64,000 nt of DNA. Origin: Kineosporia sp. NBRC 101731. Its GTDB lineage: Bacteria > Actinomycetota > Actinomycetes > Actinomycetales > Kineosporiaceae. The translations under genes and the position numbers were made by a program. The notes below the pieces were generated by a model. The model was not told the DNA's origin, did no database searches, and saw nothing but the letters and a program-made list of their open reading frames with translations. The stretch covers positions 62,001 through 126,000 of the forward strand of contig NZ_BSTC01000002.1 of NCBI RefSeq assembly GCF_030269305.1. The letters are read 5' to 3'. Positions 3,692-45,909 of the stretch are shown in pieces; positions within the stretch are counted from its first letter, which is position 1; each line of letters starts with the position of its first letter.

Positions 3692-4417
3692 TCAGTCCGG
3701 AGCGCCGCTGACCAGGGTTCCCAGGTCGGCGCCGGCACAGATGTCACGCATGACGCCCTGGGCCGCGACATCGAACACATGCATGACCAGGTTCTGTTCG
3801 CTCGCCAGGACCATGGCGCTGGTATCCATTACCCCGAGTCCGGCCTGGAGTACGTCTTCGTACGTGAGACGGCTGTACCGCGTGGCGTCGGGATGGAGTT
3901 TCGGGTCGCTGTCGTAGATTCCGTCGATCCCGTGCTTGGCCACCAGCAGCGCATCCACCTCCAGTTCGAGGGAACGCTGCACCGCGGGGTAGTCCGTGGT
4001 CACGTAGGGCTGGCCGATACCGCCGCCGAGCACGACGATGGATCCGTTCTCGAGGTGCCGCTGGGCCCGTAGCCGGATGAACGGTTCGGCGACACTGTGG
4101 ATCGGAACCGCTGTCATCACGCGGACATCGGCCTGCGTCCGGGCGGTCAGGGCACCGCGCAGCATCAGCGCGTTCATCATGGTTCCGAGCATGCCGATGT
4201 TGTCGGCCTCGGCCCGGCCGATACCCCAGCCATCGGCCATACGCCCCCGGAAGAAGTTGCCGCCACCCACGACAACAGCGATCTGTACACCGAGTTCATG
4301 GATGGAGAGCACTTCGTCCGCAAGGTGCGCCAGGCTGGTGGGATCCACCCCGGTCCCGCCGGAGCCGGCGAGCGCCTCCCCGCTGAGCTTGACGAGAACT
4401 CGCTGATACCGGGCCAT
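3692..4417 (-). CDS. pyrH: UMP kinase
   Basis: 241 residues, the usual length. Amino-acid-kinase fold signatures are all present: VLVKLSGEAL at the N-terminus, VVGGGNFFRG (residues 48-57), ADNIGMLGTMMNAL, GGGIGQPYVTTD and YDSDPKLHPDATRY. It phosphorylates UMP to UDP in pyrimidine synthesis in the cytosol. A GGAGGACG ribosome site lies just upstream of the ATG. In actinobacteria pyrH normally sits between tsf and frr; here it stands alone between a GGDEF gene and a broken membrane gene, so it may be a second copy. It is divergent from the next gene, and a half copy of the dispersed palindromic element lies between them. Confidence 0.9.
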   Translation of the reverse strand: MARYQRVLVKLSGEALAGSGGTGVDPTSLAHLADEVLSIHELGVQIAVVVGGGNFFRGRMADGWGIGRAEADNIGMLGTMMNALMLRGALTARTQADVRVMTAVPIHSVAEPFIRLRAQRHLENGSIVVLGGGIGQPYVTTDYPAVQRSLELEVDALLVAKHGIDGIYDSDPKLHPDATRYSRLTYEDVLQAGLGVMDTSAMVLASEQNLVMHVFDVAAQGVMRDICAGADLGTLVSGAPD

Positions 4418-4510: not shown

Positions 4511-4549
4511 GGGGACAGTTTGCATGATCACCGAAGGTTTTTTTGGGGG
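4511..4549 (+). repeat. half copy of the dispersed TTGCATGATCAC element
   Basis: Reads GGGGACAGTTTGCATGATCACC followed by AAGG, a run of eight T and six G. The first part matches the right arm of the complete palindrome at 10451-10494 (GGGGACA, then CTTGCATGATCAC). The tail matches the flank of the copy at 21497-21579. The mirror-image left arm is not found upstream, so this is a half element. It lies between the divergent pyrH and 4688 genes. Confidence 0.75.
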
Positions 4550-7948: not shown

Positions 7949-9448
7949 ATGCTGAAGACCCGCGCTGCCGCGCTGATCTCTGCCGTCCTGATGACGACAC
8001 TGGCAGCGTGTAACGGGTCAGCCCCGGCATCACCGGCCGCGAGTTCCGCACCCGCCACATCGGCGCAGGCCAGCAAGCCGAACATCGTGTTCGTGCTGAC
8101 CGACGACCTGTCGATGAACCTGGTGCCGTACATGTCCGAGGTCGGGAAGATGCAGACCGAAGGCGTGACGTTCGACCAGTACATCGTGGCGAACTCGCTG
8201 TGCTGCCCCTCGCGCGCCAACATTTTCACCGGTCGCTACCCCCACAACACCGGCATCAAGACAAACACCGCGAATACGGGCGGTGGCTATCAGGTGTTCA
8301 AAAGCCTCGGCCTGGATCAGGACACGTTCGCGACCGACCTTCAGGACGCCGGGTACCGCACGGCGATGATGGGCAAGTACATGAACGAGTACCAGCCCGG
8401 CAGCCCGAAGAAGCCGACGACGGACAACCCGGCCGGCTGGGACGAGTGGGCGCTCGCGGCGAGCGGTTACGCCGGGTTCAACTACAACCTGAACATCAAC
8501 GGCCAGGTCCGGCACTACGGCAGGAACGACACGGACTACCTGACCGACGTGCTGACGGGCCTCGGGCAGGACTTCATCCAGCGGTCGGCGGACGAGGGCG
8601 AGCCGTTCCTGCTGGAGCTCTCCACCTTCACGCCGCACAAGCCGTACATCCCCGCGCCCCGTCACGCCGATACCTACCCGGGCCTGAAGGCGCCGCGCAC
8701 GGCGGGCTCGTACGACGAGAAGAACACGGACGCGCCGCGGTGGCTGGCCTCGCAGGAGCTGACCCCGTCGCGGAAGGCGAAGATGGACCAGCAGTTCCGT
8801 CAGCGGGTGCAAGCGGTGCAGTCGATCAACGACATGATCCGCACGGTGCGGGCCCAGCTCGAGAAGAGCGGCGTCGCCGACAACACCTACATCGTGTTCA
8901 GCGCCGACAACGGCTATCACATGGGTGAGCACTCGCTGATCAGCGGCAAGATGACGGCCTTCGACACCGACGTGAACGTGCCGATGATCGTGGTCGGCCC
9001 GGACGTTCCGGCCGGCAGCACCGTCAGCGCCCCGGCGTCCACCGTCGACCTGCGCTCGACCTTCGGCGAGATCGCGGGCGCGACGGTGCCGACCACGGTC
9101 GACGGCCAGAGCCTGGTGCCGCTGTGGGAGGGCGGGGCCACCGACCGGCTCTACTCGCTGATCGAGCACACCGGCATGGAGCTCGACACGATGGACCCGG
9201 ACAACGGCATCTTCCGCAGCCCGATCCCGCCGAACTACACGGCCCTGCGCAGCCGGAAATGGCTCTACGTCGAGTACGACAACGGCGACCGGGAGTACTA
9301 CGACCTGACCGACGACCCGCTCCAGATGCACAACGTCTATCGGGACGTGTCGAAGAAGAGCCGCGCCGAACTGCACCGCAAGGTCATCCGGGCCAAGAGG
9401 TGCAGCGGCCAGACCTCCTGCGCCACAGCCCTGACCCCCACCCCCTGA
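7949..9448 (+). CDS. sulfatase, lipoprotein
   Basis: 499 residues. The lipoprotein signal peptide ends in LAAC (Cys 21), followed by a Ser/Ala/Pro linker. The sulfatase fold begins at PNIVFVLTDDLS (metal-binding DD). The formylglycine site is SLCCPSRANIFTGRYPHNTG, matching CxPSR with the second Cys modified. Further metal ligands are in FSADNGYHMGEHS. The domain resembles N-acetylglucosamine-6-sulfatase/arylsulfatase types that act outside the cell on sulfated glycans. A formylglycine-generating enzyme is not in the window. Confidence 0.87.
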   Translation: MLKTRAAALISAVLMTTLAACNGSAPASPAASSAPATSAQASKPNIVFVLTDDLSMNLVPYMSEVGKMQTEGVTFDQYIVANSLCCPSRANIFTGRYPHNTGIKTNTANTGGGYQVFKSLGLDQDTFATDLQDAGYRTAMMGKYMNEYQPGSPKKPTTDNPAGWDEWALAASGYAGFNYNLNINGQVRHYGRNDTDYLTDVLTGLGQDFIQRSADEGEPFLLELSTFTPHKPYIPAPRHADTYPGLKAPRTAGSYDEKNTDAPRWLASQELTPSRKAKMDQQFRQRVQAVQSINDMIRTVRAQLEKSGVADNTYIVFSADNGYHMGEHSLISGKMTAFDTDVNVPMIVVGPDVPAGSTVSAPASTVDLRSTFGEIAGATVPTTVDGQSLVPLWEGGATDRLYSLIEHTGMELDTMDPDNGIFRSPIPPNYTALRSRKWLYVEYDNGDREYYDLTDDPLQMHNVYRDVSKKSRAELHRKVIRAKRCSGQTSCATALTPTP

Positions 9449-9456
9449 TGGCCTGA

Positions 9457-9621
9457 CTACTGCTCGGTCAGCCTCTGGTCCGGCGACGGGGACTGGCGGT
9501 GCTCACGCCGGGCTTTCATCGCCTGCGTGTAGATGAGCCAGAAGACGAAGAAGAAGAGCCCCATGACGACCAGGGCGAGGATGCCCAGGGCCAGGAGCAG
9601 GAAGAGCGCGATCAAACTCAC
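9457..9621 (-). CDS. small single-helix membrane protein, 54 residues
   Basis: A GTG-initiated frame encodes a very hydrophobic helix (LFLLLALGILALVVMGLFFFVFWLIY) followed by a charged cytosolic tail rich in Arg, Gln and Pro and ending LTEQ. AGGCGG lies about 13 bases upstream. The frame fills the gap between the sulfatase and peptidase genes on the opposite strand. Such helix-plus-charged-tail proteins are common in actinobacteria and often membrane-complex subunits. Function unknown. Confidence 0.6.
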   Translation of the reverse strand: MSLIALFLLLALGILALVVMGLFFFVFWLIYTQAMKARREHRQSPSPDQRLTEQ

Positions 9622-9753
9622 CGGATGCCGCCTGTCTGTAGATCATGACCGTATGCGGTCGCTCCAGTGTGACGTGGTGGAGGCCTCCCGCGTTGCAGCC
9701 GCCTCGCCCTTCCGACGAGCCAAAAGATCATCTCTGACCTATTCTCGGATGAT

Positions 9754-10434
9754 ATGAGGTTGCTGTGGATACGACGGCTGGCCCCGGTCGTCGCCGTGCT
9801 CGCGCTGGCCGGGTGCGGCGCGGGCGATCCGGGCTCCGGGCCGGAGGAATCCCCGGCCACGAGCGAGCTGGAACAGGATCTGAACGGCGCGGTGGTCTCG
9901 ATCGAGAACTACTGGACGACGTTCCTCGCCTCGCAGGGTGAGCAGTTCCAGCCGGTCGAGGCGGTGCTCCCCTACGCCGGGCCGGACGACGGCACCTGCG
10001 GCGGTGAGCCCTTCGTGCAGAACAACGCCTTCTTCTGCCCGAGCGAGAACTTCATCGCCTACGACGCGAACTTCATCAAGCAGCAGTACGAATCGATCGG
10101 CGACGCATTCGTCTTCTACGTGATCGGCCACGAGTACGCCCACGCGGTGCAGGATTCGCTGGGCATCTCGCACCGCCTGACCATCGAGCACGAGCTCCAG
10201 GCCGATTGCCTGGCCGGGGCCTACCTCGGCGACTCGGTGCGGGGCAACGACCTCACACTGGAAGACGGAGACCTGGACGAGCTGCTGAACTCGCTGCAGT
10301 CGGTCGGCGATCAGCCCGGCATCCCCTGGTTCGCCGAGGGTGCGCACGGCACGGGACGCCAGCGCACCGAAGCGTTCACCACCGGCAGCGCCGGCACCGC
10401 CGACGGGTCGTCCTCGGTGGGCAACTGTTTCTGA
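9754..10434 (+). CDS. putative neutral zinc metallopeptidase, lipoprotein
   Basis: 226 residues. Lipobox LAGC gives Cys 21 as the modified residue. The zinc site is VIGHEYAHAVQDSLG (HExxH) with the third ligand likely in IEHELQADCLAGAYLGD, the arrangement of the YpfJ/neutral zinc metallopeptidase family. It has paired Cys (GTCGGEPF, FFCPSENF) consistent with an extracytoplasmic location. The C-terminus is Gly/Ser/Thr-rich. Substrate unknown. Confidence 0.85.
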   Translation: MRLLWIRRLAPVVAVLALAGCGAGDPGSGPEESPATSELEQDLNGAVVSIENYWTTFLASQGEQFQPVEAVLPYAGPDDGTCGGEPFVQNNAFFCPSENFIAYDANFIKQQYESIGDAFVFYVIGHEYAHAVQDSLGISHRLTIEHELQADCLAGAYLGDSVRGNDLTLEDGDLDELLNSLQSVGDQPGIPWFAEGAHGTGRQRTEAFTTGSAGTADGSSSVGNCF

Positions 10435-10450
10435 AGCCCTCAAACCCTTT

Positions 10451-10494
10451 CGTGATCATGCAAAGTGTCCCCGGGGACACCTTGCATGATCACG
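10451..10494. repeat. complete palindromic copy of the TTGCATGATCAC element
   Basis: A 44-bp inverted repeat with 22-bp arms, one mismatch and no spacer, running from CGTGATCATGCAA to TTGCATGATCACG around a CCCCGGGG centre. It lies between two convergent genes (stops at 10434 and 10506), so here it could work as a bidirectional hairpin terminator. Other copies do not sit at gene ends. Confidence 0.85.
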
Positions 10495-10505
10495 GCAGAG
10501 GTGGG

Positions 10506-11612
10506 TTACTGCTCCAGGCAGAACTCGTCGATCGGGTAGCCGACGTGCCGGGAGGCGGTGGGCAGGTAGCCCCAGACCCGATCGCCGGGCGTCAGTTCGG
10601 TGCTGTTCAGCACGGCGTCACCCGGGCCGAGAACCCGCACGTGCCAGTCGTCTTGAAGAATCAGGTTGACCCGGGTGCCGTCGTGGGCCTGCGCCGTGAC
10701 CGAGAGTAGGGGCCGGGTCTCGATCTTCACCCGGCCGACCGTGACCGCACGGGTCTGACCCTTGGTGTCGACAGCGAGAACCTGACTGCCCGAACGCAGT
10801 TCGCTGAGGTAGTTGGTGCGCTCGTTGACCGACAGCGTGTACGAGTGGATCGCCCCGGCGTTGACCCGGAACGGGCGGGTCGGCATGTACGGCAGCGGAT
10901 GGGTCTCGCTGACACAGAGAATCATGCCGGTGGAGTGCGACCCGACGAGAATGCCCTCGTCCTGCCGGAAGTGCGTGCAGGTGTCCACGCAGGCGCGCTC
11001 GCCCATGCCGACGTGCGCCACCTCCGTGACCACCAGCTCCACCAGTTCCAGCTCGGGCGTGACCGTCTGCGCCGCCTCGGCCAGTCGCGCGGCGTCGCCC
11101 ACCACCTGCGGCGTGAGCAGCACACCGTCGGAACCGCGCTCCAGCACGCCGAAGACGATGCCCGCCTCCTCCACGTCGGCGACCTCGGTGATGATGCTGC
11201 CCTGGGCCCGGTCGGCCGCGGCGAGCACGATCTCCAGCGGGATCTTGGTGGGGTCGCGGAACCTCAGCAGGCTCCACTTCTGCGTGGCGGCGGCGCGGCA
11301 GGCCTTCTCCAGCGAGGGCGCGTCGACGATCTCGACGAACGGCCCCACCTCCACGTCGGGGTACTTCAGGGCCAGTACCGCCGGGTCGCCGTGCCGGGCC
11401 GGATCGGCGATCATCACGTCGACACCGGGCAGTTCGTCGGGCAGTTCGCTGCCCTCACGCAGGAACAGCACCCGGGTGACGCTCGGCGGAACGCTCTCCA
11501 GCGTGCTCAGATCATCGGTGAGAATGCCGTCGATACCGTGGTGCAGGGCCTCTTCGACGATCGCGGCCCGCGACCCGTTGCTTGTGGTGACGTCCAGCCA
11601 GCAGAGCTTCAT
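10506..11612 (-). CDS. griH: 3-dehydroquinate synthase II-type enzyme (GriH-like, 3-amino-4-hydroxybenzoate synthesis)
   Basis: 368 residues, the full length of the archaeal-type DHQ synthase/aminobenzoate synthase family. Recognisable parts are KLCWLDVT at the N-terminus, an SLLRFRDPTKIPLE segment, the GMGERACVDTC loop and VNAGAIHSY. In Streptomyces griseus GriH, the homologue, turns the C7 amino-phospho-sugar made by GriI into 3-amino-4-hydroxybenzoic acid, while archaeal relatives make dehydroquinate. The adjacent aldolase gene is the GriI counterpart, which favours the aminobenzoate role. A clear AAGGAG precedes the ATG. The gene follows the aldolase in one operon, 77 bp apart. Confidence 0.8.
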   Translation of the reverse strand: MKLCWLDVTTSNGSRAAIVEEALHHGIDGILTDDLSTLESVPPSVTRVLFLREGSELPDELPGVDVMIADPARHGDPAVLALKYPDVEVGPFVEIVDAPSLEKACRAAATQKWSLLRFRDPTKIPLEIVLAAADRAQGSIITEVADVEEAGIVFGVLERGSDGVLLTPQVVGDAARLAEAAQTVTPELELVELVVTEVAHVGMGERACVDTCTHFRQDEGILVGSHSTGMILCVSETHPLPYMPTRPFRVNAGAIHSYTLSVNERTNYLSELRSGSQVLAVDTKGQTRAVTVGRVKIETRPLLSVTAQAHDGTRVNLILQDDWHVRVLGPGDAVLNSTELTPGDRVWGYLPTASRHVGYPIDEFCLEQ

Positions 11613-11644
11613 CTACGTTCTCCTTGGGTGGGGAGGCGCTACGG

Positions 11645-11689
11645 GTTCAGCTGCAGAAGGTTCAGCTGCAGGAAGTTCAGCTGCAGGTG
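11645..11689. repeat. three 15-bp direct repeats between the griI- and griH-like genes
   Basis: GTTCAGCTGCAG plus three variable bases occurs at 11645, 11660 and 11675, directly after the aldolase stop codon (minus strand). Each unit contains the palindrome CAGCTG. The array fills most of the 77-bp operon gap. Confidence 0.85.
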
Positions 11690-12514
11690 TCAGTGAGCGA
11701 CGATCTCGACCGGGCGCACGGGCTTGCGCGCGTTCGAGACCCCGGGTGCACGGTGCACGACCCGGACCACCGAGCGGGTGACCGCCGCCGGTTCACCGGA
11801 CTGAAAGATGCTGCGGCCCATGGCGACCCCGGCCGCACCGGTACTCATCACCGCCTCCACGTGGGAGATCAGGTCGGACGTGTCGGCAATGCGTACACCG
11901 CCCGCCGTGAGCAGCGGGATCGGACAGGTCTCCACCACGTCACGCATGGCGGCCACGTCACCGCAGTACGGCGTCTTCACCAGATCGGCCCCGAGCTCGG
12001 CGGCGAGCAGGGCCGCGTGGGCGATGAGCTCGGGCGACCTCGGGTCACTGACGCGGGGGCCACGCGGGTACACCATGGCCAGCAACGGGAGGTTCCAGCG
12101 GTCACAGGCCTCGGCCACCGCCGCCAGGTCGGCCACCTGCCGACGCTCGTCCAGCGAGCCGAGATTCACATGCACGCTCACCGCATCGGCACCGGCCCGC
12201 AGCGCCTCCTCCACGGTCGCGACCAGGTATTTGGCATCTGGATCGGGGGCCTGGGCGGTGCTCGCACTGAGGTGCACGATGAGGCTCAGGTCGGCGAACC
12301 GGTGCGGTTCGACACGACGTAGCGCTCCTTTGTGCAGCACGACGGCATCGGCCCCGCCCTCGGCCACCGCGGCGACCAGGTCGTCGAGGGCGGAGCCGGG
12401 CATGATCGGGCCGTCGCTGATCGGATGGTCGAGCGGCACGACGACGAATCGGTCGTCGCCGGAACGGGAGAGTCTGCGTAACCGCAGCCCTCTCGCGAAC
12501 CCAGTGGTGGACAT
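11690..12514 (-). CDS. griI: class I aldolase, 2-amino-4,5-dihydroxy-6-oxo-7-phosphooxyheptanoate synthase type (GriI-like)
   Basis: 274 residues. DhnA/fructose-bisphosphate aldolase type TIM barrel: VVVPLDHPISDGP near the N-terminus, AVVLHKGALRR, VHVNLGS, and the Schiff-base lysine in ADLVKTPYCGD. The C-terminal phosphate-binding loop is GVAMGRSIFQS. GriI condenses aspartate semialdehyde with dihydroxyacetone phosphate, the first step to 3-amino-4-hydroxybenzoate; archaeal homologues act in an alternative shikimate entry. The ATG at 12514 has GAGGGG seven bases upstream. First gene of a two-gene operon with the griH-like gene. No tyrosinase, polyketide synthase or other consumer of the product lies in the window. 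Confidence 0.8.
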   Translation of the reverse strand: MSTTGFARGLRLRRLSRSGDDRFVVVPLDHPISDGPIMPGSALDDLVAAVAEGGADAVVLHKGALRRVEPHRFADLSLIVHLSASTAQAPDPDAKYLVATVEEALRAGADAVSVHVNLGSLDERRQVADLAAVAEACDRWNLPLLAMVYPRGPRVSDPRSPELIAHAALLAAELGADLVKTPYCGDVAAMRDVVETCPIPLLTAGGVRIADTSDLISHVEAVMSTGAAGVAMGRSIFQSGEPAAVTRSVVRVVHRAPGVSNARKPVRPVEIVAH

Positions 12515-12843
12515 GGACGATCCCCTCAGTCGGAAGGAGCTGTCGCGGAGATCGGCACGATCAGGGCGCAGGCCGGGCTCAGGGCCTCGGCTCGTGTCGG
12601 TCCCCCGCCCCGCGGTGCGCTGAACCGCAGCGGCCCGGCCACCATAAACCGCCTGCACCACGCCCGTAGGGCGTATCGGCGGATTTCGTCGACCTCGCGG
12701 TGAACCAGTGCAGCAACGGTTTTCACTGAGAACCGGACTGCACCAGGTGCACCGGGGGCGTCATCGTTGTCGGCACTGCCCCCAGGCTGAACGCGCGATC
12801 CCGCGGGGTTGACGCGACCTGGCACCCGCCCACCCCTGCGTGA
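12515..12843. other. intergenic region upstream of the griI-like gene
   Basis: About 330 bp holding the promoter region of the griI-griH pair and the 3' flank of the XRE regulator (same strand). A 99-residue frame crosses it without protein-like character. No distinct operator was seen. Confidence 0.5.
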
Positions 12844-13677
12844 TCACGAACGGGACTGGGGAGCGTCGAGCATTCCCAGCAGGGACAGCGCTTCGGCCGA
12901 ACGAGAACCGGGTTCGACGTGGTAGACCACCATGGTCTGGTCCTCGGCCCCGGTCACCGCGAACTTCTCGTACTCCAGCTCGATCGGTCCGACCTGGGGG
13001 TGCTCGATGCGGTAGAGGCCGCTGCCCGGGTGGGGACGCACCTCGTGCCGGGCCCAGATCCGGCGGAATACCTCGCTCTTCACCGACAGCTCACCGACCA
13101 GCTCGATCAGGCGCGGATCGTCGACGTCGGCCCCCACCGCCCCCCGCAGCATCGCGATCATCCGGGCCACGTCGTCTTCCCGCACATCGCGCAGGCGGGG
13201 GTCGAGCAGGACCGCGCGCAGCATGTTCACGCCGGGCACGAAGACCGGCGCGACCAGGGTCGCCAGCCGGTTGGCGGCCAGCACGTCGAGGTAGCGGCCC
13301 TCGATGTAGGCGGGCTGGGGCCACGACTCGATCAGGCGGACGATGCCCGGACGCACGCGTTCAGTGGGGCGGTTCGGCCGCCGGTTCAGTCGTCGGCGAG
13401 GGACGGCCGGGTCGGCGAGGCCGTGCAGGTGTGCGGTGGCCTCGGGGTCGAGGTGCAGTGCGCGGGCCACGGCATCGAGCACCTGGGCCGACGGGCGCCG
13501 GTCACGGCCCTGTTCCAGCCGCGTGTAGTACTCGGTGCTGATACCGGCGAGCATCGCCAGTTCGTCGCGCCTCAGGCCCGGCACCCGGCGGTGACCGTTC
13601 ACGGCGATACCGGCGTCGTGCGGGCTGATCTGCTCCCTGCGCGCCCGCAGGAACTCGCCGATCAGGTTGGTGGCCAT
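12844..13677 (-). CDS. XRE-family regulator with MmyB-type ligand-binding domain
   Basis: 277 residues. The N-terminal helix-turn-helix reads FLRARREQISP, then PGLRRDELAMLAGISTEYYTRLEQGRDRRPS, the standard signature of this actinobacterial group. The C-terminal PAS-like MmyB domain includes YIEGRYLDVLAANRLA and FRRIWARHEVRPH, in homologues a pocket that binds fatty-acid-like ligands. The ATG at 13677 was chosen from family alignment. It is divergent from an SDR gene with 103 bp between them; such regulators usually repress the neighbouring oxidoreductase. Confidence 0.88.
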   Translation of the reverse strand: MATNLIGEFLRARREQISPHDAGIAVNGHRRVPGLRRDELAMLAGISTEYYTRLEQGRDRRPSAQVLDAVARALHLDPEATAHLHGLADPAVPRRRLNRRPNRPTERVRPGIVRLIESWPQPAYIEGRYLDVLAANRLATLVAPVFVPGVNMLRAVLLDPRLRDVREDDVARMIAMLRGAVGADVDDPRLIELVGELSVKSEVFRRIWARHEVRPHPGSGLYRIEHPQVGPIELEYEKFAVTGAEDQTMVVYHVEPGSRSAEALSLLGMLDAPQSRS

Positions 13678-13780
13678 ACCTTCACGGTAGGCCTCGGGAG
13701 TTCTCGGGAGGGTATCCCTGATGGCACCCCTATCAGCGGGAGACTGGCAACCCCCGGCCCGCCCTCGCAGGCTGCACGGC

Positions 13781-14605
13781 ATGACACGCACCTGGATCAT
13801 CACCGGCGTCAGCAGCGGCTTCGGCCGGGGGCTGGCCGAACGACTCCTGGCCCGCGGGGATCGCGTCGCGGGCACCGTACGCCGCCTGGACGCGGTCGCC
13901 GATCTGACCGCGGCCCACCCGGACACCTTTCACGTCACTCGTCTGGACCTGACCGACACGGCGCGCATCCGCGCGGTGGTCGACGCCGCGCACGAGCGGT
14001 TCGGCCGTTTCGACGTGGTCGTCAGCAACGCCGGCTACGGGCTTTTCGGTGCTGCCGAGGAGGCCACCGACGAGCAGGTGCGGCACGTGATCGACACCAA
14101 CCTGCTCGGCTCGATCCAGCTGATCCGCGCCGCCCTGCCGCATCTGCGGGCCGACGGCGGGGGCCGGATCGTTCAGCTGAGCTCGGTCGCCGGCCAGACC
14201 GCCTATCCGGGCGGCTCGCTCTACCACGCGACGAAATGGGCCGTAGAGGGTTTCGCCGAGGCGCTGGCGGCCGAGGTCGCGGGGTTCGGCATCGGCGTCA
14301 CCCTGGTCGAGCCGGGCGGCACCGGAACCGGTTTCGTCTCCGGGGCACAGATCACCCCGCGCCTGGCCGCCTACGGCCCGACCCCGGTCGGGGGCCTGCA
14401 CGACCTGTTCGAGAGCGGCCACGTGCCCACGACCAGCGACACGGCCCGCGTGGTCTCGGCGATCATCGACAGCGTCGACGTCACGCCCGCACCCCGGCGC
14501 CTACCCCTGGGCAGTGACGCCTGGACCGCGATGACGACCTCGCTCCAGGCCCGGCTGGATGACCTGCTCACGCAGAAGGATCTCGCGAGCTCTACCGATA
14601 TCTGA
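13781..14605 (+). CDS. short-chain dehydrogenase/reductase
   Basis: 274 residues. Classical SDR: cofactor motif TGVSSGFGRG (TGxxxGxG), NAG in VVSNAGYGLFG, catalytic Ser in IVQLSSVAGQ and YHATKW (YxxxK). VRRLDAV after strand two favours NADP(H). The closest type is the oxidoreductase commonly paired with XRE/MmyB regulators in actinobacteria, and the divergent regulator gene fits that. Substrate unknown. Confidence 0.87.
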   Translation: MTRTWIITGVSSGFGRGLAERLLARGDRVAGTVRRLDAVADLTAAHPDTFHVTRLDLTDTARIRAVVDAAHERFGRFDVVVSNAGYGLFGAAEEATDEQVRHVIDTNLLGSIQLIRAALPHLRADGGGRIVQLSSVAGQTAYPGGSLYHATKWAVEGFAEALAAEVAGFGIGVTLVEPGGTGTGFVSGAQITPRLAAYGPTPVGGLHDLFESGHVPTTSDTARVVSAIIDSVDVTPAPRRLPLGSDAWTAMTTSLQARLDDLLTQKDLASSTDI

Positions 14606-14745
14606 TGCGGTAGGCACCTTCTCGTGCCGGACGTCGGCGAGCCTCCCGGCCCGGCCCCACCTCTTCGGGCGGGCCGGCCGGAGGATCGCGCGCACCCGGG
14701 TCGGCCGGCGCGGCGCCGGCCTCGATCAGGGAGTGCGACCCTCGA

Positions 14746-15294
14746 TCACGCCGCGTCGATGTCTTCCACCCCGTTGCGGCGACGGCCGGTGACCTTCGCG
14801 TACTCGGCCGGCACGTCCCAGCTGCTGCCGTCGCGCGGACGCTGGAAGCGGACGGTGAGGCCGATGGGACCCACGGCGATGACCTGGTACCAGACCGAGA
14901 GATAACGCACACGATCGCCGGGCTCGAAGTCGTTCGGACCCCAGCGGCGGGTGCGGCCCTGCTCGATCATCCGATCCAGAGCGTCGTTCTCCGCAGCGAT
15001 GTGCTCGCTGAGTGTGGCCACGGCCGCCTGGGTTTCGGCACGGCGCGCGGGATCGTTCACATCGGTCAGCACACGGCGCAGGCGACGCAGGTTGCCGGCG
15101 TCGCGGGCGATGCGCTGCTTCACGACCATCGGGCGGTCGAGCGGGCCGGGCTGGTCGAAGGCCTGCGACATGAGCATCGCCAGGGCCATCTCCGAGCTCG
15201 GTTCGATCTCCGGCTCCGGAGCGGCCGCGTGCCGGCCCTGGCGTACGAGGCGGAGCGTGGTGGTGGGTGCCGTCGACGGTGAGCTGCTCGTCAT
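14746..15294 (-). CDS. hypothetical protein with coiled-coil segment
   Basis: 182 residues from ATG 15294. The first 35 residues are Ser/Thr/Pro-rich. A helical part follows (MVVKQRIARDAGNLRRLRRVLTD, then VATLSEHIAAENDALDRMIEQG) that could form a coiled coil. The last 60 residues look like a small beta barrel (FEPGDRVRYLSVWYQVIAVGPIGLTVRF), similar in feel to KOW/Tudor-type modules. No signal peptide or membrane helix. I do not recognise the family. A start 63 bases upstream is possible. Confidence 0.6.
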   Translation of the reverse strand: MTSSSPSTAPTTTLRLVRQGRHAAAPEPEIEPSSEMALAMLMSQAFDQPGPLDRPMVVKQRIARDAGNLRRLRRVLTDVNDPARRAETQAAVATLSEHIAAENDALDRMIEQGRTRRWGPNDFEPGDRVRYLSVWYQVIAVGPIGLTVRFQRPRDGSSWDVPAEYAKVTGRRRNGVEDIDAA

Positions 15295-16150
15295 CTGGAT
15301 CTGCCTTACGGGAAACCGACTGGGGAAGGCCCGGGCCCGGCTCGCGAGAGCCGGCACCGGGGATCGGTGCAGGCCCCACGCTTTGCTCGAGGGCCAGCGA
15401 CCGGGTTGCTGAAAACGTTGAGGACATCGGAGTAAATCCGGGCAAAGCGAACCCGTACCACTGGCCCACGGAAACCGACGTACTGGTCATCCTCACAGCT
15501 CAGACCCGGGAACGCAACATGTCATTTGCGTACATGGACCGACACGTATCCGAATACCGCTCCGAAACGGGCAATTCCGTCGGGTACGCAGCGTCAGCGA
15601 TCCCTACGCGTCTGTAAACCGCTTGCTCGCAACCCACTTCACCGATTCTGGAGTTGATCGCCAGTTTCTGCCATTCCCAAGGGATTTCGATAACACCGGG
15701 AGGCGGATCCAGCCGGCGGCGGATCCGGGTGCATCACGAGGGCGGCGAGAAGGCCGCCCGGTCTGTGGAACCGGTCACCGTCGAACAGACCGGGCCGCCG
15801 GACCCCGTCAGACCCCGCCGGACCCGCCGGACTCACCGCACCGGCAGGGCGGACCGGTGACGGCGAGCGGCGTCGGGTGAGCGCCGGGCGTCTCGGCACC
15901 CACGCACATCGGCCGTTGATGAACAGTGACGTTCGGTATTCCCCGACCGTGCCCGAAGAGGCGACCGGTCCACGGAACGGCCGTGCCGGGCCACTCGTCG
16001 TCCTTACATGTCAGTAGTCGGCACCCGCATCGGTGGCCCCGCAGGCAGCGGAAATGGAATTCCGTGTCAAGATGGCAGACGGCCTCGGCCCGGAGACAGA
16101 GACGTCAGGTCCGGACCATCACTACCCACAGTCGCCAAGGTGAGAGAGTC
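15295..16150. other. long intergenic region upstream of oleA
   Basis: About 856 bp without a convincing gene. Around 15500-15700 the sequence is clearly lower in GC than its surroundings (CATTTGCGTACATGG, TTTCGATAACACC), as expected of promoter DNA. At 15790-15845 there is a GGACCC/GCCGGAC direct-repeat patch. Several frames are open, including one joined to oleA, but none has a ribosome site. Confidence 0.5.
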
Positions 16151-17164
16151 TTGATCAATTCTGCGGTGGTCAGTACCGGACATGCGATTCCGGACGGCGT
16201 GGTCACGTCCGCCGAGATCGAAGACGCCGTTACTGCCCGCAGTCGGGGCTTCACCATGCCCGGCGGACTGGTTCAGCGTCTCACCGGCGTGGGAGAGCGG
16301 CGTCACGCGGTGCCGGGCACGACGTCTTCCGACCTGGCCTCCCAGGCCGGGCTGGCGGCCCTGCGCAACGCCGACGTCGACCCGCTGTCGGTCGACCTGC
16401 TCATCTACTCCTCGGCGTCCCACGACGTCTCCGAGCCGGCCACCTCGGCCATCGTGCAGCACAAGATGGGCGCGCGGAACGCCACGTTCGCCGACATCAA
16501 GAACGCCTGCAACAGCTTTCTGAACGGTCTGGACTTCGCCGCCGCGTCGATCGCGACCGGCCGGGCCCGCCGGGTGCTCGTGGTGGCGGGCGAGGTGCTC
16601 TCCCCCACGATCAACTGGGAGATCCTGAGCTCCACCGAGCTGCGCACCAAGCTCGCGGCGCTGACCCTGGGCGACGCCGGTGCCGCGGTGCTGCTGGAGG
16701 CCACCGAGGAGGAGAACACCGGTCTGCTGCCCGGGCGCTTCGTCTCCGACGGCTCGCAGTGGGAGCTCTCCACGGTGCTCTACGGCGGCAACCTGATGGT
16801 GCGCGACAATTCCCGCTCCTACTTCGAGTGCGACAGCTCGTCGCTGCAGAAGCTGGCCATCGAGCACATCCCGCCGCTGATCGAGAAGACGATCGCCGAG
16901 GTGGGCTGGACGACCGACGAGATCCGCATGATCGTTCCCCACCAGGTCTCCAAGGGCGTCACCGAGGCCCTCTGCGCGGCGATCGACTACCCGCGCGACC
17001 GGGTCGCGGTCACCCTCGACCGGTTCGGTAACAACGCCGCGGCCAGCATCCCGCTCGCGCTGAGCCTGGCCTCCGAGCAGGGACAACTCGCCAAGGGCGA
17101 CAAAGTCCTGCTGGTCTGCGGCGCGGCGGGCTTCACCGCGGGCGTCCTGCCGGTGATCTGGTGA
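16151..17164 (+). CDS. oleA: OleA, acyl-CoA head-to-head condensing thiolase
   Basis: 337 residues from TTG 16151, preceded by AAGGTGAG at a spacing of 6; the frame stays open upstream but without protein character. Thiolase fold of the KAS III type: active-site Cys in KNACNSFLNGLDFA, His in VPHQVSKG and Asn in FGNNAAASIP. OleA joins two fatty acyl-CoA molecules into a 2-alkyl-3-ketoacid, the first step to long-chain internal olefins. The next gene begins inside its stop codon, and oleBC and oleD follow, which makes the assignment firm. Confidence 0.93.
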   Translation: MINSAVVSTGHAIPDGVVTSAEIEDAVTARSRGFTMPGGLVQRLTGVGERRHAVPGTTSSDLASQAGLAALRNADVDPLSVDLLIYSSASHDVSEPATSAIVQHKMGARNATFADIKNACNSFLNGLDFAAASIATGRARRVLVVAGEVLSPTINWEILSSTELRTKLAALTLGDAGAAVLLEATEEENTGLLPGRFVSDGSQWELSTVLYGGNLMVRDNSRSYFECDSSSLQKLAIEHIPPLIEKTIAEVGWTTDEIRMIVPHQVSKGVTEALCAAIDYPRDRVAVTLDRFGNNAAASIPLALSLASEQGQLAKGDKVLLVCGAAGFTAGVLPVIW

Positions 17165-19779
17165 CCATGCAGATCGCGGAGGGTGTGGACGCCCGGTGGG
17201 TGCGCTCGGTGACCACTCCCGAGGGCACCTGGCACGTGCTGGACAACCAGGCGGTGCTCGACCGGGAGCCGGTCGGCACGCTGCTCTGCGTGCACGGCAA
17301 CCCCACCTCGTCGTACCTGTGGCGGCACGTCATCGCCGAGCTCTCGACCGGTGACCGCCCGTGGCGCGTGATCGCGATGGACCAGCTGAACATGGGCTGG
17401 TCGTCGCGCACGGGCCGGCGGCGCCTGGGTCAGCGGCTCGACGACCTGGCGGCCCTGACCGACGAGCTCGGCCTCGAGGGCCCCGTCGTCACCCTGGGGC
17501 ACGACTGGGGTGGCTGCATCTCCCTGGGCTGGGCCGTGAACCACCGCGCCGACCTGGCCGGGGTGGCCGTGCTCAACACGGCCGTGCACCAGCCCCCCGG
17601 CTCGGCGCTGCCCGCCCTGATCGCGGCGGCCCGGCTGCCCGGCCTGCGGCGCCTCGTGACCGCCACCACCCCGATCTTCCTGCAGGGCACGCTGGCGATC
17701 GCCCACCCGCGGCTGTCCCCGCAGGTGCGCGCCGGCTACCTCGACCCGTACCGCGGCGCCTCCCGGCGCGGCGGGATCGACGAGTTCGTCGAGGACATCC
17801 CGGTCAACCCGGAGCACCCGAGCTGGCCCGCGCTCCAGGGCATCGTCGACGGGCTGCCGAGCCTGGCCGATCTGCCCGCGCTCATGCTCTGGGGCCCCCG
17901 CGACCCGGTGTTCACCGATCTCTACCTGCGTGACCTGCGCACACGCCTCCCGCAGGCGAAGGTGCACCGCTTCGAGAAGGCCGGCCACATGGTCGCCGAA
18001 GACGCCGAGGTGGCCCGCGCGGTGCGGCAGTGGCTTGAGGACGACGTGGAGCCCGGGCTGCCCGGGTCACCGGCGGTGCCGTCCCCCCGGAACACCGACG
18101 CTCTCCCCGACGTGATCCAGCAGTTCCTCCCCGGCCAGCCCCGGCGGTCACTCTGGGCTCCCCTCGAGACCCGCGCGCACGACCTCTCGCCCGCCCTGGT
18201 CGAGCCGACCGGGCACGGGAACGGCCGGATCGGCAGCTGGCGCACCACCACCTGGATGCAGTTGTCAGGTGATGTTCATCGCGTCGCCGCCGGCCTGACC
18301 GCCAGTGGGGTGAAGCCCGGCGACCGGGTCGCGCTGCTCGTCCCGCCCGGCGCCGACCTCACCGTCGCGCTCTACGCCTGCCTGCGCATCGGTGCCGTCG
18401 CGGTGATCGCCGACGCCGGGCTGGGCCTGCCGGGCCTGCACCGCGCCATCCGGGGCTCGGCGGTGAAGCACGTCATCGGGATCGACCGGGGGCTGCTGGC
18501 CGCCCGGGCACTGCGCTGGCCGGGGCAGAAGATCTCGGTCGGGATCGCCGCCGGTTCGGCCCGGGCGAAGGCCCTGGGCGCCGGCCTGGCCCTGGAAGAC
18601 CTGAAGAAGGTCACGCTGATCGACCTTCCGCCCGCCCCGGCCGAGAATGCCGAGGCGATGGTCATTTTCACCTCGGGCTCGACCGGCCCGGCCAAGGGCG
18701 TGGTCTACACACACCGCCAGCTCGAGGGTGTGCGCGATGCCTTGCTGTCGGCCTACAAGCTCCGCACAGGCAGCGAGAATCCTTACGACGACGACCGTTT
18801 CGTGGCCGCATTCGCCCCGTTCGCGCTCTTCGGACCGGGCCTGGGAGTGCCCTCGGCGGTGCCGGCCATGGATGTCACCGCACCGCGCACCCTGACCGCG
18901 AGCGCCCTGGCCCAGGCCGCGCGGGCGATCGACGCGACGGTGGTGTTCGCCTCCCCCGCCGCACTGACCAACGTGCTCGCGACCTCGTCCGCACTGGGTG
19001 CCGACGACCGCTCGGCCCTGACCGGGGTGCGCCTGCTGCTGTCGGCCGGGGCTCCGGTGCCGGCCGAACTGCTCACCACGTTGCAGGGTCTGCTGCCGCA
19101 GGCGGAACTGCACACGCCGTACGGCATGACCGAGGCCCTGCTGCTGACCGATGTCGACCTGCCCGAGTTGGTGGCGGCCGGTCCGGGCAACGGTGTGCTG
19201 GTCGGCCGGCCGATGCCAGGGGTGGAGATCCGGATCAGCCCGCTGGACACGGACGGCCGGGCGATCCGGACGGAGACGACCGGCAAGACCGACGTCACCG
19301 GCGAGATCCTTGTGCGGGCGCCGCATCTCAAGGAGCGTTACGACCAGCTCTGGCTGACCCAGCGGGAGACGTCGACGACCGACGGCTGGCACCGCACCGG
19401 TGACGTCGGGCATTTCGATGCCGACGGCCGGCTCTGGGTCGAGGGGCGGCTGATCCACGTGATCCGTCCCGCGGGTGGTTTCGTCACGCCGTACGGCGTG
19501 GAGCAGCGGATCCAGACGGTGCCCGGCGTGCAGCGCGCGGCGCTGGTCGGGGTCGGCCGGGCCGGAGCGCACCAGCTGGTGGCCGTGATCGAGGCGCCCG
19601 ACGCCGAACTCGGTGTCGCGCCGCTGGAACTGGCCGCCGCCGTGCGGTCCGCGGCCGGGCTGGAACTGGTCGCGGTGCTCGTCACCGATGCCCTGAAGAC
19701 CGACATCCGCCACAACTCCAAGATCGACCGGGACGAGGTGGGCCGCCGGGCAGCGGCTCTGCTCGCCGGGTCACGCTGA
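17161..19779 (+). CDS. oleBC: OleBC fusion: beta-lactone decarboxylase plus beta-lactone synthetase
   Basis: 872 residues. Residues 1-310 are an alpha/beta hydrolase of haloalkane-dehalogenase type with oxyanion loop HGNPTSSYLW, Asp nucleophile in GHDWGGC and the His in KAGHMVAEDAE (OleB). Residues 330-872 are an acyl-adenylate-forming domain with the P-loop IFTSGSTGPAKGVVYTH, YGMTEALLLTD, RTGDVGHFDADGRLWVEGR and a C-terminal catalytic Lys near HNSKIDRDE (OleC). OleC closes the 2-alkyl-3-hydroxyacid to a beta-lactone, which OleB decarboxylates to the alkene. Fusion of the two is known in actinobacterial ole clusters. Start GTG 17161 overlaps the oleA stop; ATG 17167 is an alternative. Confidence 0.93.
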   Translation: MTMQIAEGVDARWVRSVTTPEGTWHVLDNQAVLDREPVGTLLCVHGNPTSSYLWRHVIAELSTGDRPWRVIAMDQLNMGWSSRTGRRRLGQRLDDLAALTDELGLEGPVVTLGHDWGGCISLGWAVNHRADLAGVAVLNTAVHQPPGSALPALIAAARLPGLRRLVTATTPIFLQGTLAIAHPRLSPQVRAGYLDPYRGASRRGGIDEFVEDIPVNPEHPSWPALQGIVDGLPSLADLPALMLWGPRDPVFTDLYLRDLRTRLPQAKVHRFEKAGHMVAEDAEVARAVRQWLEDDVEPGLPGSPAVPSPRNTDALPDVIQQFLPGQPRRSLWAPLETRAHDLSPALVEPTGHGNGRIGSWRTTTWMQLSGDVHRVAAGLTASGVKPGDRVALLVPPGADLTVALYACLRIGAVAVIADAGLGLPGLHRAIRGSAVKHVIGIDRGLLAARALRWPGQKISVGIAAGSARAKALGAGLALEDLKKVTLIDLPPAPAENAEAMVIFTSGSTGPAKGVVYTHRQLEGVRDALLSAYKLRTGSENPYDDDRFVAAFAPFALFGPGLGVPSAVPAMDVTAPRTLTASALAQAARAIDATVVFASPAALTNVLATSSALGADDRSALTGVRLLLSAGAPVPAELLTTLQGLLPQAELHTPYGMTEALLLTDVDLPELVAAGPGNGVLVGRPMPGVEIRISPLDTDGRAIRTETTGKTDVTGEILVRAPHLKERYDQLWLTQRETSTTDGWHRTGDVGHFDADGRLWVEGRLIHVIRPAGGFVTPYGVEQRIQTVPGVQRAALVGVGRAGAHQLVAVIEAPDAELGVAPLELAAAVRSAAGLELVAVLVTDALKTDIRHNSKIDRDEVGRRAAALLAGSR

Positions 19780-19789
19780 GGCAGCGTTC

Positions 19790-20761
19790 ATGAAGATCCT
19801 CGTCACCGGCGCCAGCGGGATGCTCGGCGGCGGGGTGGCCCGGAAACTGGCCGAACGTGGTGACGACGTGACGGTGCTCCAGCGCCGTCCGTCGTCGCTG
19901 GCCGGGGTTCGTGAGATCAACGGTGACATCACCGACGCGTCCACACTTCTGCGGGCCGTCGAGGGGATGGACGCGGTGGTACACCTGGCCGCGAAGGTGA
20001 ACGTGATCGGTCCGTGGGCCGAGTACCAGGCCGTGAACGTCGACGGGGTGCGCCATCTCGTCACCGCGATGCAGCGGGCGGGCACTTCCCGCCTGGTGCA
20101 CGTGTCGTCGCCGTCGGTCTCTCACGGCGGTGTGGCCCTGATCGGCGAAGGCGCGGGGCCCGCCGACCCGGAGCACGCGCGGGGCAACTACGCCCGCAGC
20201 AAGGCCGCCGGTGAGCTGCTCGCCCTGGCAGCCGACTCGTCCACGCCGGCCGTCGTCGCCGTGCGCCCTCACCTGGTCTGGGGGCCGGGCGACACCCAGC
20301 TGGTCGGCCGGATCGTGCAGCGGGCCCGCCAGGGGCGCCTGCCCCTCATCGGTTCCGGGGCGGCGCTCATCGACACCACCTACGTGGACAACGCCGTCGA
20401 CGCCACCGTCGCGGCCCTCGACCGGATCGAGGTGGCCCACGGCCGGGCCCTGGTCGTCACGAACGGCGAGCCCCGGCCCGTGGCCGATCTTTTCGCCCGA
20501 CTCTGCGACGCCGCCGGGGTGCCCGCCCCGACCCGGCGCATCCCCTTCCCGGTGGCCTGGGCGGCGGGGGCCGCGGTCGAGGGGGTCTGGACCCTGGGCC
20601 GGCGCCGCGACGACCCGCCCCTGACCCGCTTCCTGGCCGAACAGCTCGCCACCGCGCACTGGTTCGACCAGAGCACCACCCGGGCCGTGCTCGGCTGGAC
20701 CCCGGCGGTGAGCCTGGAGGAGGGCTTCGAGCGCATGGCCCAGTGGTACGCGCGCCGGTAG
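19790..20761 (+). CDS. oleD: OleD, 2-alkyl-3-ketoalkanoate reductase
   Basis: 323 residues. Extended SDR (NAD-dependent epimerase type): TGASGMLGGG at the N-terminus, HLAAKVNVIGPW, catalytic YARSKAAGE (YxxxK) and VRPHLVWGPGD. The C-terminal part (WTPAVSLEEGFERMAQWY) is typical of sterol-dehydrogenase-like family members including OleD. It reduces the 2-alkyl-3-ketoacid made by OleA using NADPH. It begins 10 bp after oleBC, completing the operon in the order A-BC-D. Confidence 0.92.
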   Translation: MKILVTGASGMLGGGVARKLAERGDDVTVLQRRPSSLAGVREINGDITDASTLLRAVEGMDAVVHLAAKVNVIGPWAEYQAVNVDGVRHLVTAMQRAGTSRLVHVSSPSVSHGGVALIGEGAGPADPEHARGNYARSKAAGELLALAADSSTPAVVAVRPHLVWGPGDTQLVGRIVQRARQGRLPLIGSGAALIDTTYVDNAVDATVAALDRIEVAHGRALVVTNGEPRPVADLFARLCDAAGVPAPTRRIPFPVAWAAGAAVEGVWTLGRRRDDPPLTRFLAEQLATAHWFDQSTTRAVLGWTPAVSLEEGFERMAQWYARR

Positions 20762-21496: not shown

Positions 21497-21579
21497 CGTG
21501 ATCATGCAAATCCTCCCTGGCGTTCTAGAACTCTTCGCCCGACAGTTCTAGAACTCTGGGGAGGTTTTGCATGATCACG
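21497..21579. repeat. large complete palindromic copy of the TTGCATGATCAC element
   Basis: An 83-bp inverted repeat with 36-bp arms and an 11-base loop. From outside to inside each arm reads CGTGATCATGCAAA, a CCTCCC box and GTTCTAGAACT, the last itself palindromic. The right arm is followed by GGCAAGG, five T and six G, as in the half copy at 4511. It lies between divergent genes (starts at 21455 and 21642), so it is not simply a transcription terminator here. Confidence 0.88.
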
Positions 21580-44265: not shown

Positions 44266-45909
44266 GTGAAACCCGGTGCACAGAATTCATCGAAAACCGC
44301 CCGTCGTCGGACCGCAGCCGTAGCCGGCGCGACCGCCGTACTGGTGGTCGGCGCCTCGGCCAGTGCCGTCTACGCCTGGCCCCACCGAGGCGAGCGGCAC
44401 ACATCGGGAAGAACGACCTCCGTGAGCGCCACCACGACGGCGACCGCGACCGCAGCGGCGACCGCGTCGTCCTCCGCGACCGCCACGGCCACGGCGGCTC
44501 CCGCGGAAACCACTACCAGCAAGGCGACGACGACCGCGACGGCGACCACGTCGTCCTCCGGCACCGCGAAGACCTCGGGCGACGTGATCGCCAACCTCTT
44601 CGAGTGGAACTGGACCTCGGTGGCCAAGGAATGCACCACGGTGCTGGGCCCGAACGGGTACGGCGGCGTGCAGGTCGCCCCGCCGCAGGACTCCCTCAAG
44701 CTCAACGGCAGTGCGCACGCCTGGTGGGAGGTGTACCAGCCGGCTGGTTACGACCTGAACAGCCGGATGGGTAGCGAGGCCCAGTTCAAGAGCATGGTGA
44801 CAGCCTGCCGCGACGCCGGCGTCAAGGTCTACGTCGACGCGGTCATCAACCACATGTCCGGTCACGACATGACCAATGCGAAGTCGTACAGCGGCAACTC
44901 CTACACCTCCACGAACTACCCGGGTCTCTACAGCGCCGACGACTTCCACCAGGCGAGCGAGTGCCCCACCTCCTCCGGCACCGTCGAGGACTACGACAAC
45001 GTCACGCAGGTGCACTTCTGCCGGCTGTCGAACCTGGAAGACCTGAAGACCGAGAGCACCTACGTGCGCGGCGCGATCGACACCTACCTGAACAAGCTGC
45101 TCGGGTACGGGGTCTCGGGCTTCCGGGTGGACGCCGCCAAGCACATCCCGCTCGCCGATATGAAGGCGATCATCGACGGGCTGGACCAGACGGTCGACGG
45201 CACCGACCCGTACGTGGCGCTCGAGGTGTTCGGCGGCAAGGGTGAGCTGTCGCAGGCCTCCTACGCGGAGCTCGGTTCGGTGCTCGGCCTGGACGCCTCG
45301 GTACAGCTGAAGAAGGCCTTCGCCGGGAACATCTCGTCGCTGAAGACCTTCGGCGACTACCTGATCCCCTCGAGCAAGTCGCTGACGTTCGTGATGAACC
45401 ACGACACCGACCGCAGCGGCGACTCGATCAGCTACAAGGACGCCAAGACCGACCGCCTGGCCACGCAGTTCATCCTGGCCAACGACTACGGCACGGCGCA
45501 GGTGTACTCCTCGTTCGCCTGGTCGGCCAAGGACGACGCTCCCCCGTCGAGCAGCAACGGCATGGTGACCGACACCGACTGCAGCAGCTCGGCCTGGAAC
45601 TGCCTCGACCGCGACCAGGGCGTGCTCGGCATGGTCACCTTCCGTAACACCGTGGGCAGCGCCGCGGTGAAGAACTGGTCGGACGACGGCGCCAACCTGA
45701 TCGGCTTCAGCCGGGGCGCCAAGGGCTGGACCGCCCTGAACAACGGCACGTCGGCCAAGACCCAGACCTTCCAGACCGGTCTGGCCGCCGGCACCTACAC
45801 CGACCTGATCACCGACGGCACCACCGTCAAGGTCGGCTCGGACGGTAAGGCGTCGGTCACGGTGCCCGCGCGGGGTGCGGTCGCCATCACGGTGGACACC
45901 CTTCAGTAA
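44266..45909 (+). CDS. secreted alpha-amylase, GH13
   Basis: 547 residues from GTG 44266. A signal helix (TAAVAGATAVLVVGASASAVYAW) is followed by a linker of about 75 residues almost wholly Thr/Ala/Ser. The GH13 barrel begins at VIANLFEWNWTSVAKEC. Catalytic motifs are DAVINHM (region I), GFRVDAAKH (region II, nucleophile Asp), ALEVFGGKGE (region III, acid/base Glu) and FVMNHDTDR (region IV, Asp). A C-terminal beta domain ends GAVAITVDTLQ. It hydrolyses alpha-1,4-glucans outside the cell. The last 7 bp overlap the monooxygenase gene. Confidence 0.92.
   Translation: MKPGAQNSSKTARRRTAAVAGATAVLVVGASASAVYAWPHRGERHTSGRTTSVSATTTATATAAATASSSATATATAAPAETTTSKATTTATATTSSSGTAKTSGDVIANLFEWNWTSVAKECTTVLGPNGYGGVQVAPPQDSLKLNGSAHAWWEVYQPAGYDLNSRMGSEAQFKSMVTACRDAGVKVYVDAVINHMSGHDMTNAKSYSGNSYTSTNYPGLYSADDFHQASECPTSSGTVEDYDNVTQVHFCRLSNLEDLKTESTYVRGAIDTYLNKLLGYGVSGFRVDAAKHIPLADMKAIIDGLDQTVDGTDPYVALEVFGGKGELSQASYAELGSVLGLDASVQLKKAFAGNISSLKTFGDYLIPSSKSLTFVMNHDTDRSGDSISYKDAKTDRLATQFILANDYGTAQVYSSFAWSAKDDAPPSSSNGMVTDTDCSSSAWNCLDRDQGVLGMVTFRNTVGSAAVKNWSDDGANLIGFSRGAKGWTALNNGTSAKTQTFQTGLAAGTYTDLITDGTTVKVGSDGKASVTVPARGAVAITVDTLQ

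Follow-up and report, generated by a model that had tools for sequence, protein, structure and literature searches.

Why would a bacterium keep the two genes that make an aromatic precursor when none of the genes around them appears to use it? The question is raised by a griI–griH pair in Kineosporia sp. NBRC 101731, which lies in a stretch of 64,000 nucleotides (contig NZ_BSTC01000002.1, positions 62,001 to 126,000; G000:C2:62001-126000 in our numbering), referred to here as the window, from a genome of 8.26 Mb in 88 contigs. The pair encodes a DhnA-type aldolase and a homologue of 3-dehydroquinate (DHQ) synthase II, related to the enzymes that make 3-amino-4-hydroxybenzoate (3,4-AHBA) for several families of natural products. 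We consider it likely that these genes form a working, self-standing 3,4-AHBA synthase operon whose product is released, free or N-acylated, or is used in trans.

Identity of the gene pair

A preliminary description of the window had recognized the aldolase and the DHQ synthase II homologue as a griI/griH-type operon, and the coordinates, Pfam and NCBIfam all agree with it: griI comes first and griH follows after 77 bp on the same strand, forming a two-gene operon, and the ATG start of griI is kept in both related carriers in a three-species alignment. Pfam places GriI in the DeoC/LacD aldolases (E 7e-54, 183 bits) and GriH in the DHQS family (E 2e-109, 366 bits), with griH as the single PF01959 match in the genome. 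The highest-scoring of 14 NCBIfam models for GriI is BagB_FevI (350 bits), and the ADH_synth model gives 287 bits and does not reach its cut-off of 299. GriH scores highest among seven models with BagC_FevH (572 bits) and exceeds the cut-off of the subfamily model PRK02290.1-3 (555 bits, cut-off 375), while the remaining DHQS-II equivalogs give merely 191–252 bits (cut-offs 392–629). The margin of the 3,4-AHBA-type models over the archaeal equivalogs is wide for GriH and smaller for GriI (350 versus 287 bits). That the pair is real, far beyond chance, is confirmed, and the family models confirm its predicted assignment to the actinobacterial BagB/FevI–BagC/FevH type rather than the archaeal type. 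They also support the earlier preference for 3,4-AHBA synthesis over an entry to the shikimate pathway, with the reaction itself and the destination of its product being predictions.

GriI aligns with the archaeal aldolase MJ0400 (2qjg) over most of its length (E 5e-75), and its Lys180 (VKT motif) and Tyr149 (YPRG motif) match the same MJ0400 residues in the alignment; we take them to be the Schiff-base lysine and the catalytic tyrosine. A phmmer search of PDB sequences returned no relative of GriH at E 0.001, and a GriH profile found just a designed protein (E 0.004) and a MarR regulator (E 0.43). Its predicted structure, of moderate confidence (pLDDT 83, pTM 0.61), is similar to TIM-barrel enzymes along only a part of the chain (TM-score by query length 0.30–0.38 among the matches listed); it suggests that the protein begins with a TIM-barrel-like half and continues with a beta-rich one.

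The literature describes GriI as catalyzing the aldol condensation of aspartate semialdehyde with dihydroxyacetone phosphate (DHAP) and GriH as performing the cyclizing aromatization to 3,4-AHBA (PMC10179220), and BagB and BagC as using the same substrates (PMC6692506). By analogy, the Kineosporia GriI would join the two substrates via its Schiff-base lysine, and GriH would cyclize and aromatize the resulting seven-carbon compound to give 3,4-AHBA.

A fast maximum-likelihood tree built on 101 GriH rows groups the three Kineosporia proteins in a single clade (support 100) within the actinobacterial set, with no starred sister. The shortest paths lead to proteins of Prauserella, Gandjariella, and Streptomyces whose loci carry the usual partner genes. 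The tree has no archaeal row, long branches, and a root set on a divergent protein from another Kineosporia genome (G006), and so we use it for a statement of membership alone. Of the phylogenetic check proposed at the outset, the part that places GriH among actinobacterial 3,4-AHBA-type proteins is borne out, and an archaeal placement lies outside the rows of the tree.

A cassette kept at one site

The pair is present at one site in three of six Kineosporia genomes, that of the window and two others (G007 and G009, with GriH 95% and 91% identical to the window's), between a Zn-peptidase gene and a gene for a 182-aa protein that stands beside ole-type genes; a homologue of the 182-aa protein occupies the right-flank position in all six genomes (39% identity in G008). 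In the remaining three (G005, G006, and G008) the same flanks are present but the pair is missing. The gap between the flanks is occupied by homologues of other genes in G005 and G006, and two of the three genomes have zero PF01959 matches. More broadly, PF01959 is matched in 4 of the 13 family genomes searched, all from one genus (4 of its 6), and in 18 of 394 genomes evenly sampled from the class, the window's own genome counted. The most economical reading is that a two-gene cassette entered the Zn-peptidase/ole locus in the ancestor of the three species, and loss in the others is also conceivable.

G006 carries a divergent griI–griH pair elsewhere (L015:17722-19921, L016:1-3874; G006:C16), with GriI 37% and GriH 44% identical. 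This pair directly precedes genes for an MprF-type lysylphosphatidylglycerol synthase (690 bits) and an alpha/beta hydrolase, possibly a different use of the pathway.

Both reading frames are intact in the three species, and the pair is kept under purifying selection. Ratios of nonsynonymous to synonymous substitution (dN/dS) were calculated by the Nei–Gojobori method for 12 chosen genes of the locus in two pairwise comparisons. In the comparison of the window with G009, the more distant carrier, the two lowest of the 12 values belong to griH (0.135) and griI (0.192), and the other local genes range from 0.194 to 0.464.

The DNA upstream of griI is conserved as well, with blocks over about 250 bp that align in all three carrier species and 92% identity over 302 bp between the window and G007. 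This region is probably operator or promoter DNA rather than a riboswitch, because the 150-nt stretches adjoining griI fold no better than shuffled sequence (z +0.46, +0.75, and +0.54) and an Rfam search of 9400–16300 matched no family; an RNA element upstream of griI was ruled out on the same grounds. No sigma-70-type promoter was matched in 9400–14000, which says little for an actinobacterium. When the upstream DNA was used to look for a wider regulon, short weak matches alone appeared beyond the griI sites of the window's genome and G007, the best of them (35 bp, in G009) falling within predicted coding sequence; this search was insensitive, since it missed the griI upstream region of G009 itself and scored just 40 candidates per genome. 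A 14-base string, GCGAAAACTGTTGG, common to the griI region of G009 and the gap between oleA and the 182-aa gene in G006, was set aside as too little evidence. After its arrival the cassette would have been retained by purifying selection, together with an upstream control region of its own.

Users of the product and other explanations

How unusual a bare pair is can be judged from its relatives. Named genomes were scanned with a GriH alignment (21 of its 22 rows), and the best 80 of 397 encoding stretches were kept as near relatives; proteins of these loci were predicted with a home-made codon model and clustered, and Pfam and NCBIfam served to identify the representatives. The Cre, Gri, and Phz labels used here combine family matches with the makeup expected of these clusters, described in part in PMC10179220 and PMC11429834. 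The counts are descriptive, as some class-sample and named loci come from the same genome, some families are common, and flanks extend to at most 10 kb. Within these limits, the aldolase-first, adjacent, same-strand arrangement is found in 78 of the 80 loci, and at least one of 18 partner families accompanies the pair in 78 of these best 80. Aspartate kinase is the most frequent partner (54 loci), followed by a BagE/FevW-like ligase (35), an amidohydrolase (29), an FAD monooxygenase (26), an O-methyltransferase (23), a second FAD monooxygenase family (22), CreE-like proteins (20), MelC1 and a tyrosinase-type oxidase (19 each), CreM-like (15), GriC-like and GriD-like (14 each), PhzE and PhzD-like (12 each), and CreD-like proteins (10), arylamine N-acetyltransferase (NAT) and AMP ligase (8 each), and DAHP synthase (7). 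The two loci with none of the 18 are from K. mesophila (L038) and Streptomyces prunicolor (L076), the latter on a stretch that extends just 4.9 kb left of griH. Among the 18 class-sample loci, re-fetched at about 20 kb each, one (L165) lacks all 18 families, and its pair is adjoined by long unassigned genes. The open-access literature (titles and abstract beginnings) yielded nothing on 3,4-AHBA in Kineosporia or on bare griI–griH pairs.

The S. prunicolor locus has the flanks of a relative, L070, minus the NAT and AMP-ligase genes that follow griH there, and its bare pair looks like the result of loss.

Around the Kineosporia pair, a Pfam scan of the genes between 6.1 and 20.8 kb (some of the window's small predicted genes fell outside it) detected no tyrosinase, aspartate kinase, or polyketide synthase, in line with the earlier remark that no gene using the product is in the neighborhood; an FAD-monooxygenase-family protein is encoded at 45903–47498, 33 kb away. 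Because no committed user gene is linked, the product would likely be released free, N-acylated by an unlinked enzyme, or consumed in trans. PMC11429834 describes 3-acetamido-4-hydroxybenzoic acid as a shunt product of such pathways. A bolder idea, which we put forward tentatively, is that the pathway ends at 3,4-AHBA or a simple acylated derivative, a small secreted o-aminophenol acting as a metal ligand, redox mediator, or signal and not an antibiotic building block; the pair would then be the smallest possible pathway, two genes with a conserved control region of their own.

Candidate users were sought beyond the locus. Tyrosinase (PF00264) was found in none of the six genus genomes, and since that search gave no positive control signal it was repeated with two Streptomyces genomes, both of which were detected, with none among three Kineosporia. 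The BagE/FevW-like ligase model reaches at best 53 bits in the window's genome (cut-off 800) and 159–184 bits in the five congeners, whether or not they have the pair; matches that are weak and present in all six genomes led us to reject this ligase as a consumer in trans. A benzoxazole-type condensing amidohydrolase with its ligase (NatL2/NatAM or ClxA/ClxD) was not recognized near the pair, and no genome-wide search for it was made.

An unlinked cluster on contig C12 of the window's genome (C12:165504-191220; L137, L018) offers a more specific candidate. It encodes CreD-like and CreE-like proteins, a berberine-bridge-type oxidase, an AMP ligase, an FAD monooxygenase, an FMN reductase, a class II DAHP synthase, DhbA-like, PhzD-like, PhzE, and KSIII-like proteins, an arylamine N-acetyltransferase, and GriC-like and GriD-like proteins, and it has no griH. 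The cluster may draw on the griIH product, and its own product is possibly of the diazo type. That the pair and C12 are two halves of a split cluster, with 3,4-AHBA made at one site and modified at the other by a GriC/GriD-like carboxylic acid reductase, the NAT, the AMP ligase, and CreD/CreE-like nitrite enzymes, is unlikely in our judgment, even though the C12 proteins resemble partners in griIH clusters (CreD-like 64%, CreE-like 59%, GriC-like 57%, GriD-like 58%, NAT 50%), their Pfam domains agree with these labels, and the genome's only PF01959 match lies outside the cluster. The cluster's own DAHP synthase, PhzE, PhzD-like, and DhbA-like genes suggest instead that its arylamine is 3-hydroxyanthranilate. 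Moreover, C12 cannot explain why the pair is retained in the sister species, because they lack GriD-like and close CreE-like proteins. Of the six genomes, the window's alone has a GriD-like reductase, other matches being at a background of 20–22 bits (one of 21 bits in G007, none in G009), and it alone has a close CreE-like protein (55%); CreE-like homologues of 33–46% occur in G005 and G007, with no CreD-like neighbor in the fetched stretches (32 kb in G007), and none was found in G006, G008, or G009. For the proteins of this cluster, the search of the other genomes covered the GriD-like and CreE-like types.

It is improbable that the enzymes have drifted in substrate choice and now make a different aminohydroxy aromatic or a non-aromatic C7 amino-ketose. 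The long stem of the Kineosporia GriH clade (0.5 changes per column, support 100) and its lack of a starred sister would fit such drift, but the six best matches outside the genus are still 69–72% (GriH) and 59–64% (GriI) identical, and their loci hold the usual partners. Less probable still is that the pair is what is left of a larger 3,4-AHBA cluster, decaying and no longer useful: bare pairs can come from loss, as the comparison of L076 with L070 illustrates, yet here the frames are intact in three species, dN/dS is low, the upstream DNA is conserved, and no leftovers of other cluster genes are recognized at the site. Least probable is that the pair feeds the shikimate pathway by an alternative route of archaeal type, the competing idea of the preliminary description, which is contradicted and very unlikely, and not needed, because an aroC-aroK-aroB cluster (chorismate synthase, shikimate kinase, 3-dehydroquinate synthase; C6) and class II DAHP synthases (C15 and C12) are present, along with a second AroB-like protein (C3); the enzymes do share the superfamilies of MJ0400 and MJ1249, but archaeal-type models score lower, most clearly for GriH, and half of the genus genomes do without the pair at this site. 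The absence of aroB that was to have spoken for such an entry is thus not what the genome presents.

Several points weigh against a self-standing 3,4-AHBA operon. The identification of 3,4-AHBA as the product is based on sequence, and the narrow "exception" cut-offs of NCBIfam are not reached (350 of 500 bits for BagB_FevI, 572 of 750 for BagC_FevH). The dN/dS values come from two pairwise comparisons, and in the one with the closer G007, OleA (0.069) and the 182-aa gene (0.126) have lower values than griH (0.156) and griI (0.145). Two of the three carrier genomes are drafts. Methyltransferases and monooxygenases are common enough that some of the 78 partnered loci may count by chance. Finally, the users sought in trans comprised one ligase model, tyrosinase, and GriD-like and CreE-like proteins, and a user of another type could exist.

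Surroundings of the pair and its place among known systems

The features of the locus are collected in Table 1. The XRE/MmyB-like gene next to the upstream region was considered as a dedicated regulator and rejected: it is not the pair's conserved regulator, because it is absent from the locus in the two other carriers. To the right lies an ole-type gene set (16199–20761) encoding OleA-like, fused OleBC-like, and OleD-like proteins, putatively for long-chain olefins. No link between the pair and these genes is indicated, because the OleA- and OleBC-like genes keep their synteny across the six genus genomes whether the pair is there or not. At 3692–4417 a putative uridylate-kinase-like gene, so named by reading, is missing from the corresponding stretch of both sister species.

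Table 1. Coding and non-coding features at the griI–griH locus, in window coordinates.
Feature	Position	Strand	Description
Neutral zinc metallopeptidase-like gene	9796-10434	plus	Left flank; syntenic homologue in six of six genus genomes
Inverted repeat	10451-10494		Stem of 20 pairs, one of them G-U; lies where griH and the Zn-peptidase gene converge
griH	10506-11612	minus	3,4-AHBA synthase type (DHQ synthase II family), 368 aa; AAGGAG ahead of ATG
griI–griH spacer	11613-11689	minus	Three near-repeats of CTGCAGCTGAAC; G007 has one such unit
griI	11690-12514	minus	DhnA-type class I aldolase, 274 aa
Region upstream of griI	12516-12820	minus	Non-coding, conserved in three species
XRE/MmyB-like regulator	12844-13677	minus	Absent at this place in two other carriers
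SDR oxidoreductase	13781-14605	plus	No counterpart at this place in two other carriers; not DhbA-like by NCBIfam
182-aa protein	14746-15294	minus	Right flank, no Pfam match; then ole-type genes
OleBC-like protein	17161-19779		Holds the sole AMP-binding domain among the genes scanned (6.1-20.8 kb)

The inverted repeat downstream of griH folds with -40.1 kcal/mol (z -7.2) and is a probable two-way terminator. It is also an instance of an intergenic palindrome, GTGATCATGCAAA and its complement around a loop, that recurs at 21499–21577 and as a single arm at 4530. In the Kineosporia stretches (435 kb) the palindrome core TGATCATGCA has 16 copies, every one of them in G007 or the window's genome, and it has one copy in the 1.58 Mb of 79 other named loci; the palindrome is lineage-specific.

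The enzyme pair itself is a known one; its form in Kineosporia, bare but selected, is unusual. PMC10179220 lists grixazone, bagremycin/ferroverdin, the manumycin family, cremeomycin, and platensimycin as built from 3,4-AHBA. Like GriI/GriH, NspI/NspH, BagB/BagC, and FevI/FevH, the pair has the adjacent I–H order on one strand and keeps the lysine and the tyrosine. PMC6692506 names SARP and LuxR regulators, an o-aminophenol oxidase, a copper chaperone, and an FAD oxygenase as genes shared by grixazone-, bagremycin-, and ferroverdin-type clusters, and none of these is recognized beside the Kineosporia pair; nor is an aspartate kinase, unlike in 54 of the 80 named loci. With CreH/CreI of cremeomycin-type diazo clusters it shares the precursor pair, but it has no linked CreD, CreE, or CreM genes: the window's genome has CreD- and CreE-like genes on contig C12 alone, and the sister carriers have no close CreE-like protein. 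The precursor logic of the closoxazole clusters (ClxE/ClxB), aspartate semialdehyde plus DHAP as given in PMC12118335, is the same, whereas no ligase or condensing amidohydrolase is recognized near the pair, the ClxD type not having been searched for genome-wide. MJ0400 and MJ1249, which catalyze early shikimate steps in archaea, belong to the superfamilies of the two enzymes, but the archaeal-type models score lower and the genome has a normal shikimate entry. S. prunicolor L076 is the sole other named locus of the 80 without the 18 partner families, although it lies in another genomic place and its relative L070 still has NAT and AMP-ligase genes.

Bare pairs of this kind could be overlooked by cluster-finding tools that seek larger clusters. 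In the window's genome the pair flags a possible split route with the unlinked cluster of CreD/CreE-like and GriC/GriD-like genes. More generally, a bare pair that is kept by selection implies one of two things: a function for the molecule in its own right, or a user encoded elsewhere in the genome.

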